Positions 306 through 45,546 of a stretch of 47,111 nt of DNA are shown here, piece after piece. A program made the position numbers and the translations under genes. The stretch's first letter is position 1. The number at the start of each line of letters is the position of its first letter. Source of the stretch: Lachnospiraceae bacterium (GTDB lineage Bacteria; Bacillota; Clostridia; Lachnospirales; Lachnospiraceae); assembly GCA_021200475.1 (NCBI GenBank), contig JAJQGP010000089.1:1-47111 (forward strand), in the 5' to 3' direction. The notes beneath the pieces were generated by a model. It worked only from the letters and a program-made list of their open reading frames with translations. It searched no databases and was not told the origin of the DNA.

Positions 306-1751
306 ATGAAAAACATTTTATTTGTCACATCAGAGGCAACTCCTTTTATTAAGACAGGAGGACTTGCAGATGTTGCAGGATCTCTTCCGAAATGTTTTAA
401 TAAAGAAGAGTTTGACTGCCGCGTGATCCTTCCTAAGTATCAGTGCATGGCAGAAGAATGGAAGAATCAGCTGGAGTATGTCACGCACTTCTATATGAAT
501 CTGTCGTGGAGATCTCAGTATGTGGGTATTCTGCATATGGAGCTGGAGGGTATTCATTTTTATTTTATTGATAATGAATATTATTTTTCCGGCGCAAAGC
601 CATATGGAAATATTTACCAGGACATTGAGAAATTTGCGTTTTTCTCAAAAGCAGCGCTTTCCGCACTGCCGTCTATCGGATTCCGGCCGGATGTGATTCA
701 CTGTCACGACTGGCAGACAGGTCTGATCCCGGTGATGCTCAAAGACAGATTCCAGGATGGAGATTTTTACCGTGGGATCAAATCTGTGATCACGATTCAC
801 AACCTGAAGTTCCAGGGTGTCTGGGATGTCAAGACCGTACGTGATATCACGGGATTATCGGCGGATTATTTTACACCGGATAAGCTTGAGGCATACGGGG
901 ACGCCAATTATCTGAAAGGCGGCATTGTCTATGCGGATGCTATTACTACGGTAAGCGATACTTATGCGGAAGAGATCAAGATGCCGTTTTACGGTGAACG
1001 CCTGGATGGTTTGATGAGGGCGCGTGCAAATGATCTTCGCGGAATTGTAAACGGAATTGATTACGATGTCTGGAATCCGGAGGCCGATCCGCTGATTGAT
1101 TATCATTTTAATGCGCGTAATTTCCGTAAGGAAAAGATTAAAAATAAACGTGCGCTTCAGCGGGAGCTTGGCCTGGAGCAGAATGATTCTGCGTTTATGA
1201 TTGGTATTGTGTCCCGTCTGACGGATCAGAAGGGATTTGACCTGATCGAGCATATGATGGATGAGATGTGCCAGAACAATCTTCAGATCGTAGCGCTTGG
1301 CACCGGTGAAGAGAGATATGAAAATATGTTCCGCCATTTCGCGTGGAAGTATCAGGGCAAGGTGTCCGCGAATATTTTCTATTCGGAGCAGCTTTCCCAC
1401 AAGGTCTATGCGGCCTGTGATGCATTCCTGATGCCGTCGCTGTTTGAGCCGTGCGGCCTGTCGCAGATTATCAGTCTTCGCTATGGCACGGTTCCGATCG
1501 TCCGTGAGACAGGCGGCCTGAAGGATACGGTGGAACCATATAATGAATACGAAAGTACTGGTACCGGATTCAGCTTCGCGAATTATAACGCGCATGAGAT
1601 GTATTTTACGGTACAGCGCGCGATGAATCTTTATCACAACAAAAAGCGTGAGTGGAATAAGATGATTGACCGCGGCATGGCGATGGATTTCTCGTGGAAC
1701 AGTTCTGCGAGAAAGTACGAGGAGCTGTATAACTGGCTGCTCGGCTGCTGA
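306..1751 (+). CDS. glgA: Glycogen synthase (ADP-glucose, GT5)
   Basis: Glycogen synthase transfers glucose from ADP-glucose to the non-reducing end of alpha-1,4-glucan in the cytoplasm. The 481-residue length is normal for bacterial GlgA. The N-terminal Rossmann domain starts with MKNILFVTSEATPF followed by the KTGGLADV motif (Lys16 is the ADP-glucose-binding lysine of the family). The C-terminal GT-B domain carries SRLTDQKGFDL and the nucleotide-binding stretch LMPSLFEPCGLSQ and ETGGLKDTV. A GGAGG-type site ends about eight bases before the ATG. No other glg genes (glgC, glgD, glgB, glgP) are visible here, so the pathway partners must be elsewhere. Confidence 0.96.
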   Translation: MKNILFVTSEATPFIKTGGLADVAGSLPKCFNKEEFDCRVILPKYQCMAEEWKNQLEYVTHFYMNLSWRSQYVGILHMELEGIHFYFIDNEYYFSGAKPYGNIYQDIEKFAFFSKAALSALPSIGFRPDVIHCHDWQTGLIPVMLKDRFQDGDFYRGIKSVITIHNLKFQGVWDVKTVRDITGLSADYFTPDKLEAYGDANYLKGGIVYADAITTVSDTYAEEIKMPFYGERLDGLMRARANDLRGIVNGIDYDVWNPEADPLIDYHFNARNFRKEKIKNKRALQRELGLEQNDSAFMIGIVSRLTDQKGFDLIEHMMDEMCQNNLQIVALGTGEERYENMFRHFAWKYQGKVSANIFYSEQLSHKVYAACDAFLMPSLFEPCGLSQIISLRYGTVPIVRETGGLKDTVEPYNEYESTGTGFSFANYNAHEMYFTVQRAMNLYHNKKREWNKMIDRGMAMDFSWNSSARKYEELYNWLLGC

Positions 1752-34264: not shown

Positions 34265-34295
34265 ACCCCGCTGTAAAAAGCGGGGTTTTATTTTT
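34265..34295 (+). terminator. Rho-independent terminator after the LysR gene
   Basis: ACCCCGC (34265-34271) pairs with GCGGGGT (34280-34286) and is followed by TTTTATTTTT. The tail runs directly into the first, degenerate unit of the 32-bp repeat array. Confidence 0.95.
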
Positions 34296-34411
34296 CCTGA
34301 AAAATGTAGAATAATCATTCAATTTCCACATGAAAAATTCGAACCAATCTCGTATTTCCACATGAAAAATGTGAAATAATCTTGTATTTCCACATGAAAA
34401 ATGTTATTCTT
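34291..34411 (+). repeat. 32-bp tandem repeat array upstream of the first DUF4143 ATPase
   Basis: Units start at 34323, 34355 and 34387, exactly 32 bases apart, each opening TTTCCACATGAAAAAT. The last is cut to about 25 bases. A degenerate unit precedes them at 34291-34322. Within a unit TTTCCACAT and ATGTGAAA form an imperfect dyad around GAAAA. After the last unit comes ATTCTTAACC then GGGTTAA, so an inverted repeat TTAACC/GGTTAA closes the array. The array is contiguous, with no spacers. A second array with the same period and core lies before the other DUF4143 gene at 45441. Confidence 0.9.
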
Positions 34412-34484
34412 AACCTCAATACGGGTTAATAATAAAGACACTGAACTATTTTAAAACAGGATTTTGCATTATGGAGGGACATTT

Positions 34485-35786
34485 ATGGAACGTTTACTAA
34501 TGGAAGAGCTTGTAAAATGGAAAGAGAAAAAGACAAGAAAACCGCTGCTGATCCGCGGAGCCAGACAGGTGGGGAAGACGTGGATTATGAAAGAATTTGG
34601 CAGACGGTATTTTAAGCAGTCCGTGTATATCAGTTTCGACAACAATGAACGCATGAAAAATGTCTTTTCTATGGATTTTGATATATCCAGAATTCTGTCA
34701 GCGCTGAAAGTGGAAAGCCGGATGCAGATCCGTCCGGAGGATACACTTCTCATATTTGACGAGATTCAGGAGGTTCCGAAAGCACTGACTGCGCTGAAGT
34801 ATTTTCAGGAAAACGCGCCGGAATATGCGATTGTCGCCGCTGGCTCGCTGCTGGGTGTGGCTCTTCACGAAGGGACATCGTTTCCGGTGGGAAAGGTGGA
34901 TTTTTTAAGTTTATATCCTCTGAATTTCAGAGAATTCCTGATGGCGGCGGGGGAATCGGAACTGGCAGAGTTATTGCGAAAGAATGATTTTCAAATGATT
35001 ACGGCATTTTCCTCAAAGTACGCGGATTTTCTGAGAAAATATTATTATGTAGGCGGGATGCCGGAAGCAGTCTGTACTTATTTTGAAACGGATGACGTTT
35101 ATGAGGTACAGAATGTGCAGCGACAGCTTCTGGTTTATTACGCGAATGATTTTTCCAAACATGCGCCAACTGAAACAGTACCGCGGATACAGATGGTGTG
35201 GAATTCCATCCCGATGCAGCTGACAAAAGAAAATAAGAAATTCATATATGGGATGGTCCGCGAGGGCGCCCGTGCGAAAGATTTTGAACTTGCAATTCAG
35301 TGGCTCCTGGATTGTGGTCTGGTTCATAAAGGATACCGTATCAGCAAACCGGGAATGCCGCTTATTTCTTATATGGAAATGAACTGCTTTAAACTGTACT
35401 TCATCGATGTGGGACTTTTATCAGCACTTTGTGACCTGGATGCCCGTACTTTGCTGGAAGGAAATCGTGTATTTACGGAATTTAAAGGCGCATTGACAGA
35501 ACAGTTTGTTGCTCAGGAGTTGTCCGCGGCCGGAATGAATCTGTACTATTATTCGACAGAGAATTCGAGCGGTGAGATTGACTTTGTTGTGCAGCGGTAT
35601 GGCCATATCATTCCTGTGGAAGTAAAAGCGGAGGAGAATCTGCATGCCAAAAGCCTTCGCAGCTATTGCCAGAAGTATCAGCCGGACATTGCCATACGGT
35701 CCTCCATGTCGGATTATCGGGAACAGGATTGGATGGTGAATATTCCACTGTATGCTTTGGTGGAATTTCTGAATGGAATAAAATAG
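34485..35786 (+). CDS. AAA+ ATPase with DUF4143 domain
   Basis: The 433-residue protein (ATG 34485, GGAGGG at 34473) belongs to the large AAA_14/DUF4143 group found in gut bacteria and archaea. No member has a firmly established function. Walker A is GARQVGKT (residues 25-32), and Walker B is LLIFDEIQEVP at about 85-95. The DUF4143 part lies in the middle to C-terminal region. A possible nuclease-like PD-(D/E)xK site can be read as Asp366, then Glu379 and Lys381 in IDFVV...PVEVK. The same spacing recurs in the second ATPase at 45759. The only features shared by the two loci outside the genes are the 32-bp repeats. Confidence 0.9.
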   Translation: MERLLMEELVKWKEKKTRKPLLIRGARQVGKTWIMKEFGRRYFKQSVYISFDNNERMKNVFSMDFDISRILSALKVESRMQIRPEDTLLIFDEIQEVPKALTALKYFQENAPEYAIVAAGSLLGVALHEGTSFPVGKVDFLSLYPLNFREFLMAAGESELAELLRKNDFQMITAFSSKYADFLRKYYYVGGMPEAVCTYFETDDVYEVQNVQRQLLVYYANDFSKHAPTETVPRIQMVWNSIPMQLTKENKKFIYGMVREGARAKDFELAIQWLLDCGLVHKGYRISKPGMPLISYMEMNCFKLYFIDVGLLSALCDLDARTLLEGNRVFTEFKGALTEQFVAQELSAAGMNLYYYSTENSSGEIDFVVQRYGHIIPVEVKAEENLHAKSLRSYCQKYQPDIAIRSSMSDYREQDWMVNIPLYALVEFLNGIK

Positions 35787-36164
35787 GCGTGAGGCTCTCT
35801 TCTGAACTGTTTATGCGTCAAACGCTTTTTGAGAGATGCGGTGATTTGTCTTGTAACTGTGTCTCTCGAAGATCTGATCTGTGGTCTGCTGTTCTGAATA
35901 ATTACATTTCCCTTTCTTATCCAATCAAAATCAATCTATTAACAATAAAAATGACGGAAAACCAGTGCTAAATCAGCAGAAAAGAAGTGAAACTGACGAT
36001 GCATTTTTTGAAGCACCCTCTTTGGTTTGTGGTTTAATGCCAAGCCGCAAAATGTGATAGAGTATTGCCATCAGATGAAAGAGAAAAGCAAACCCCGGAA
36101 ACGGAAGCCGGGGAGGAGCGGATGAAACGCTGCGGCACAGGAACAGCGAAAGGAGGACTTGCCT
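35787..36164 (+). other. Gap with repeat fragments and hairpins
   Basis: No convincing gene is present in this stretch. It holds right-half copies of the palindromic repeat (TTCTGAACTGTT near 35798 and CTGCTGTTCTGAATAATTAC near 35888). A dyad, GAGAGA..TCTCTC, lies at about 35833-35870. A hairpin, CCCCGG/CCGGGG, lies at 36093-36113 just before the next gene's leader. These look like the remains of repeats plus the leader of the membrane protein. Confidence 0.55.
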
Positions 36165-45410: not shown

Positions 45411-45440
45411 GGAAGGAGTTTATTCCTATTCAAACATCTA

Positions 45441-45546
45441 TTTCGCCTAAAAAATGTATAATTTCATTAAAAATCCACCAGAAAAATGCGAACACATCTT
45501 GTGATTCCACCAGAAAAATGATATTCTTGATTCCAATCTGGGTTAG
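45441..45546 (+). repeat. 32-bp-period repeat array upstream of the second DUF4143 locus
   Basis: CCACCAGAAAAATG occurs twice, with its preceding TCC at 45474 and 45506, 32 bases apart. A degenerate unit, TTTCGCCTAAAAAATG, starts at 45441. The last unit is followed by ATTCTTGATTCC and GGGTTA, the same boundary as the array at 34291-34411. The shared core of the two arrays is CCACnnGAAAAAT. Confidence 0.8.

Follow-up and report, generated by a model that had tools for sequence, protein, structure and literature searches.

The window, by which we mean the whole 47,111-nucleotide stretch of Lachnospiraceae DNA analysed here, belongs to a genome of 3.2 Mb in 180 contigs, and the feature of concern is an array of direct repeats immediately upstream of a gene for an AAA_14-DUF4143 ATPase (Table 1). 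The product of this gene matches AAA_14 (E 2e-29) and DUF4143 (E 1.1e-38), and is a full-length match, with 626 bits over residues 1-427 of 433, to the PADLOC profile PDLC04786 of the candidate defence family PDC-S01; other PDC-S01 profiles score best for three further DUF4143 subtypes of the same genome and for the 408-aa protein encoded near the end of the window. The start codon is likely the ATG at 34485 rather than the TTG at 34464, with a GGAGGG sequence at 34473-34478. In this protein, Walker A spans residues 25-33, Walker B runs to D92-E93, and the residues of a putative PD-(D/E)XK nuclease are E339, E364, D366, E379 and K381. The earlier note on this DNA had proposed an AAA+ motor joined to a possible PD-(D/E)xK tail, and the motif residues are nearly invariant: in 136 array-bearing proteins G25, K31, T32, D92 and E93 are kept in 134 to 136, E339, E379 and K381 in all 136, and E364 and D366 in 135. 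Residues ~256-308 form a segment which we take, from its sequence pattern, to resemble a winged helix; the assignment is suggestive, as no Pfam HTH match to this segment was obtained in five proteins, and we found no solved relative. Because the nearest window genes scanned are a LysR-family gene and the genes of one unassigned and one solute-binding protein, no defence island is seen there.

Table 1. Features of the repeat-ATPase locus and of the second array in the window
Feature	Position	Strand	Basis or remark
Intrinsic terminator belonging to the LysR-family gene upstream; left end of DNA that cassette-free relatives share	34265..34289	+	Terminator scan; alignment with L250 and L251 to 34289
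Cassette: array, ATPase gene and ~120 bp beyond	34290..35906	+	Missing from this site in three close relatives; right edge placed to within ~15 bp
Whole array (four 24-base unit frames)	34287-34407	+	
Unit 1, degenerate, 24-base frame	34287..34310	+	33 bp ahead of unit 2
Unit 2	34320..34343	+	Holds TTTCCACATGAAAAAT at 34323
Unit 3	34352..34375	+	Holds TTTCCACATGAAAAAT at 34355
Unit 4	34384..34407	+	Holds TTTCCACATGAAAAAT at 34387; occupies the predicted spacer between TTGTAT and TATTCT
Predicted promoter: TTGTAT (34382-34387, weak), 17 bp, TATTCT (34405-34410)	34382..34410	+	Sequence and sister genes
Dyad TTAACC/GGTTAA past the -10	34410-34415 / 34424-34429	+	Read from the sequence
AAA_14-DUF4143 ATPase, 433 aa, PADLOC PDC-S01	34485..35786	+	Profile matches
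Second array, core CCACCAG, spacing 32	45437..45524	+	234 bp before a 408-aa DUF4143 gene (from 45759)

The array itself is as the earlier note had read it: three exact copies of TTTCCACATGAAAAAT follow one another on the + strand at spacings of 32 and 32 bases, a degenerate unit precedes them, its frame extending 3 bases across the left junction of the cassette, and a dyad closes the series, its full form not being found in the sister loci compared. The last unit frame ends 77 bp upstream of the likely ATG of the ATPase gene. When up to three mismatches were allowed, six matches to TTTCCACATGAAAAAT were found in the window against 0.64 expected, a number reached in none of 100 shuffles; Tandem Repeats Finder reported positions 34298-34404 (period 32, 3.3 copies, score 142) as the top of its 14 rows for the window, and the self-shift score of the array was 41, compared to a maximum of 12 among 300 dinucleotide shuffles. 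The suggestion that each unit holds a short dyad stood for the window, where TTTC-N5-GAAA is present, and was rejected as a general trait, given that dyad arms of at least 4 occur in 9 of 136 array consensuses and letter shuffles expect 11.9. The array is also not a CRISPR array, as had been recognised from the outset: in spite of the shared period of ~32 bp, the period here is made up of a 16-base unit and a linker of ~16 bases, and the linkers are partly alike instead of being unique spacers. No Cas protein was found among the four neighbouring window proteins scanned.

At the LysR site the array and the gene appear to have moved as one. The upstream LysR gene has 97% identical orthologues in three close relatives, where this gene (in two of them with the terminator as well) is followed by the next gene with neither array nor ATPase between them, and therefore the two were gained or lost together at this site. 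The gap there is ~1.6 kb in the window against ~60 bp in the shortest relative, the other two having extra intergenic DNA, and sister genes with 91% and 85% DNA identity are located elsewhere in two of the three relatives. During inspection for inverted repeats, a 29-base match was noted between the right flank of the cassette and DNA upstream of a sister cassette. The second array of the window is a different case. The 408-aa gene behind it belongs to a subtype that otherwise lacks arrays, and the DNA at ~45.4-45.5 kb matches the array region of a different ATPase in one of these relatives (G010:C75); the CCACCAG array is therefore probably the orphan of a lost gene, and an array can outlive its own gene.

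Similar arrays are common before other DUF4143 genes, a point on which the earlier note had staked its reading. Upstream of 107 of 184 AAA_14-DUF4143 genes (6/13 in the own genome, 32/86 in the genus, 69/85 among named relatives) we found chains of units spaced by 31-34 bp, in most cases by 32 or 33, compared to none of the 272 other genes taken from these loci and from the window; 77 of the 184 failed the test, and 16 passed it on the reverse strand. This set was reduced from 188 to 185 genes by removing duplicates and short upstream regions, and to 184 by leaving out L002, whose array is probably the leftover of a different gene; the chain threshold of 18.8 was the largest score of 93 shuffles, and the motif was trained on L001-L190. 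The genus loci comprise 29 assigned automatically and 60 hand-chosen among the matches listed, and because L111-L190 are the 80 nearest relatives among the matches listed, these frequencies are not population rates. Among loci fetched later, 42 of 74 DUF4143 genes passed compared to 0 of 370 shuffles (viral contigs 3/11, family 31/49, phylum 8/14), or 40 of 72 without L314 and L319, which are fragments from a contig that the training set already contained (see L151). A motif-free test gave p<0.01 in 88 of 186 DUF4143 genes (own genome 8/14, genus 37/86, named relatives 43/86) with periods of 32 (48 genes), 33 (31), 23 (5) and others (4), and in 13 of 272 controls, none of which had a period of 31-34. 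The window genome alone has 17 DUF4143 matches and, the broken copies L010 and L011 being left out, a significant array within 380 bp upstream in 8 of 15 tested, with a period of 32 or 33 in seven and of 23 in one; L002 is among these eight.

Possession of an array follows protein subtype. Proteins of at least 423 aa with a profile score above 330 have an array in 102 of 138 cases and the 405-415-aa subtype in 0 of 23, so that arrays are not a trait of all DUF4143 genes. Neither are they common to AAA+/nuclease families at large, as the PF09820 ATPases of the same genome show repeats in 2 of 27 cases, with periods of 26 and 20; a single genome (G000, loci L221-L247) holds 27 PF09820 matches alongside 17 DUF4143 matches, and one genus array precedes a PF09820 AAA-ATPase (L207, G003:C63, ~1500-1540). 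Some subtypes have arrays of another make: in a distant one the period is 23 bp (L008, L089, L096, L099, L102), and in L008 the core apparently also stands on either side of the -10 in inverted orientation, while near-palindromic units such as AAAAGTCATTTTGAAATGACTTTT recur at 32 bp in the subtype of L090, L094, L095, L097, L098, L101 and L105.

The hosts of array-bearing genes include Firmicutes, Bacteroidota, Pseudomonadota and Actinomycetota, and Chlamydiota with a different unit: in a Criblamydia plasmid (L360, 400 bp before position 701) a period-32 array of unrelated units has a DUF4143 gene downstream, the period being conserved and the unit sequence not. Nine plasmid-borne relatives, out of 60 matching records, were read, and the chain test was passed in five of them, from Glaesserella, Parabacteroides, Segatella, Bacteroides and Collinsella, the Bacteroides pass being by motif only (self-shift p 0.90); those of Acinetobacter, Criblamydia and Fusobacterium have period-32 repeats under the motif threshold (p 0.003 each), and no array was found upstream of the Vibrio one. 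The array-bearing plasmid gene of Glaesserella (L352) adjoins a DNA methyltransferase, and that of Segatella (L354) a DUF262 gene. A relative also occurs in each of 13 unannotated gut records named 'Bacteriophage sp.'. No array was found upstream of the Thermus gene TT_P0211, whose RNA is reported to be 6.6-fold up in plasmid-bearing cells with Argonaute present (PMC4406477), which is at most a lead.

Searching in the opposite direction, from repeat to gene, the pattern AAAAATGT-N24/25-AAAAATGT was found at 51 places in 40 genus genomes, which by our own count are 33 distinct arrays, and its backward version at 2. Twenty-one of these arrays lie before a same-strand DUF4143 gene (one partial), one lies before a PF09820 gene, and the remaining 11 have no gene of either kind behind them; some of the last group, placed inside coding sequence or at its margin, look like chance and several look like orphans. 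No ATPase remnant was detected by tblastn at 1e-4 near gene-less arrays at 15 loci, and a decayed ATPase beside them was thus rejected, in spite of L205 resembling one by eye. In two genomes (L192, L217) an esterase-like gene is preceded by arrays whose core resembles that of L005, with no ATPase detectable nearby. Within its genome the unit of the window is not widespread without its gene: at up to one mismatch it is confined there to the array and to a single site near a contig end.

Behind units that differ from gene to gene there is one iterated motif, an A-rich stretch followed by TC, a variable core, an A-tract and TGT, in a common frame that is partly imposed by the alignment. Arrays contain from two to seven units, with 58 of 142 having two accepted units only. 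In the mean profile positions 13-16 are A-rich, at 69-82%, and the core, at positions ~9-12, changes little inside an array but differs from one array to the next, with 82% of the variation at position 10 lying between arrays (again in this partly imposed frame). The earlier note had called for comparing the repeat core with the ATPase subtype, and the two do co-vary. For the 33 array-bearing genes of the genus sample, the mean core distance is 0.25 between proteins more than 70% identical from different genomes (78 pairs), 0.57 between less alike proteins from different genomes (422 pairs) and 0.59 between genes of the same genome (28 pairs); the difference between 0.59 and 0.25 has a Mann-Whitney p of 4e-14 over pairs that are not independent. 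Over 68 path-disjoint pairs of the tree, core distance correlates with the distance in each protein block (Spearman 0.42-0.52). It could be argued that co-variation of this kind stems from common descent of a linked cassette.

Where in the protein the specificity might be seated is suggested with less force. In a sliding scan, windows within residues 280-306 reach 0.30-0.39 against a median of 0.12 for all windows, and a C-terminal window (417-431) reaches 0.36; the partial Mantel value for block 258-306 is 0.42, with 0 of 2000 permutations as high (83 proteins), and the best single columns include positions 215, 358 and 420 outside the block. With path-disjoint pairs, block 256-308 gives 0.23 (p 0.067, 47 pairs) and 0.19 (p 0.060, 68 pairs), and block 111-160 is close behind (0.17, p 0.079). 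A seat in the putative winged helix is therefore suggestive, at p about 0.06. The association of a GTAC core with N285 was rejected as proof of contact, being a single event on the tree. Own cores match no better than other cores either inside coding sequence (136 genes tested) or in the 300 bp downstream (108 genes tested), and own-core sites in these places were rejected as not above control, a near-copy at ~34647 in the window gene being of the same class.

The units run into what is predicted to be the promoter of the ATPase gene. In the window the predicted -10 has a TG one base ahead and the promoter as a whole is weak, under the threshold of our consensus scan; the sister genes L072 and L113 carry TGTTATAAT / TGTTATATT at the matching position. 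Across the family, with sequences aligned on the last unit, 33 of 107 genes have their best -10-like hexamer at offset 30-32, compared to 8 of 107 with shuffled tails; overlap of this unit with the core promoter is thus a tendency, as far as promoters can be predicted. By eye, many clostridial genes have TTGTAA inside the last unit and TATACT 17 bp downstream; elsewhere the unit leads at its end into TATACT or, among certain Bacteroidota, into a TATATTTG-like box. Each unit had been thought to be a binding site for a regulator or for the ATPase itself, and the position of the units at predicted promoters, together with a core that follows the protein, is what such sites would be expected to show; autoregulation fits this placement better than a nuclease target does.

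We consider it rather probable that the arrays are self-specific operators, to which the ATPase itself binds and through which it represses its own gene. Because the wording of the repeat follows the protein and not the host, the protein probably controls its own gene, and because the spacing is about three helical turns, the units would all face the same side of the helix. Promoter overlap, same-strand placement, whole-turn spacing, a matched core and the confinement of the window unit essentially to its own array are most simply accounted for by an operator that serves the product of the gene itself. Two to seven units running into the core promoter would act as the operator of the ATPase gene, and the ATPase, with its AAA+ motor, putative winged helix and PD-(D/E)XK residues, would bind the repeats ahead of its own gene, probably co-operatively and as an oligomer, so repressing its own transcription, with derepression possibly serving defence. 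The 32/33-bp period might then reflect the spacing of neighbouring protomers and the core the recognition surface of the cognate ATPase, and distinct cores could let many paralogues share one genome without cross-regulation. A variant that we hold to be something of a long shot is that the units are self-addressed docking sites, where the ATPase-nuclease rests on its own promoter and its loss from there upon invasion both arms the enzyme and switches the gene on; if this were true, paralogues with different cores would make up a panel of insulated tripwires within one genome.

A closely related possibility, in our opinion unlikely although worth keeping in view, is that the ATPase binds the array mainly for a purpose other than repression: the array would tether or store the ATPase-nuclease at its own locus, from which an invader would release the enzyme and free the promoter at once. 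The conservation of E339, E379 and K381 in every array-bearing protein makes a resting place for a nuclease plausible, and arrays of up to seven units in a candidate defence family would agree with it; however, autoregulation alone accounts for the promoter overlap, and many arrays have only two accepted units. That the repeats are operators of a separate, host-encoded regulator seems improbable to us, in spite of a possible analogy in RptR, a small repressor that, in the accessible part of its description, binds direct repeats over a defence promoter (PMC12255303). A single host regulator fits badly because one genome holds several cores, like ATPases of different hosts share cores, and the neighbouring LysR gene is retained in relatives without the array.

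More improbable still is that the arrays are phased A-tracts, curved or similar to UP elements, that boost the promoter with no specific binder. The A-rich positions and a period of about three helical turns would suit such a role, but curvature needs neither TGT nor a core that is specific to the array, and no other gene among the 272 controls carries such arrays. We give very little credence to the possibility that the repeats are the end or recombination site of a mobile cassette: the array does begin where the insert joins its left flank (34290), and three relatives are without the cassette, but this single insert shows no target duplication at either junction, the 108 genes examined have no excess of own cores downstream, and the units hold a set position relative to the predicted promoter. 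If the self-specific operator that we favour is the correct reading, a self-matched array of fixed period names a likely DNA target of PDC-S01 without any screen, and therefore binding, autoregulation, oligomer geometry and the insulation of paralogues become directly testable; the arrays and their ATPases would also represent a natural collection of operator-regulator pairs. We found no report of arrays before DUF4143 or PDC-S01 genes in the literature searched, which covered few preprints and subscription papers.

Known systems resemble this one in part. In plasmid iterons, direct repeats about whole helical turns apart stand before the gene of the protein that binds them, and the arrays described here share with them the direct repeats, the whole-turn spacing and the place upstream of the gene of a binder, here a proposed one; the difference is that our gene carries no annotation as a replication initiator, and that the units here run into a predicted promoter. 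The window ATPase is by profile a candidate member of PDC-S01, the single-gene defence candidate of PADLOC. In the accessible parts of the published descriptions, PDC-S01 is ranked among the most abundant defence candidates in prokaryotes, with a mechanism not known, and no upstream array is mentioned, whereas arrays stand before such genes here (PMC12988326, PMC13356809). Direct repeats over a promoter of defence type, predicted in our case, are also found in the RptR defence island, where, as far as the accessible part of that report goes, an operon-encoded 9-kDa repressor binds three direct repeats that overlap the -10 of the defence operon (PMC12255303). Those repeats are 9 bp long around TAGCTA and are served by a separate repressor gene, whereas here the spacing is 32/33 bp, the core varies by gene, and the gene behind the array is that of the ATPase-nuclease itself.
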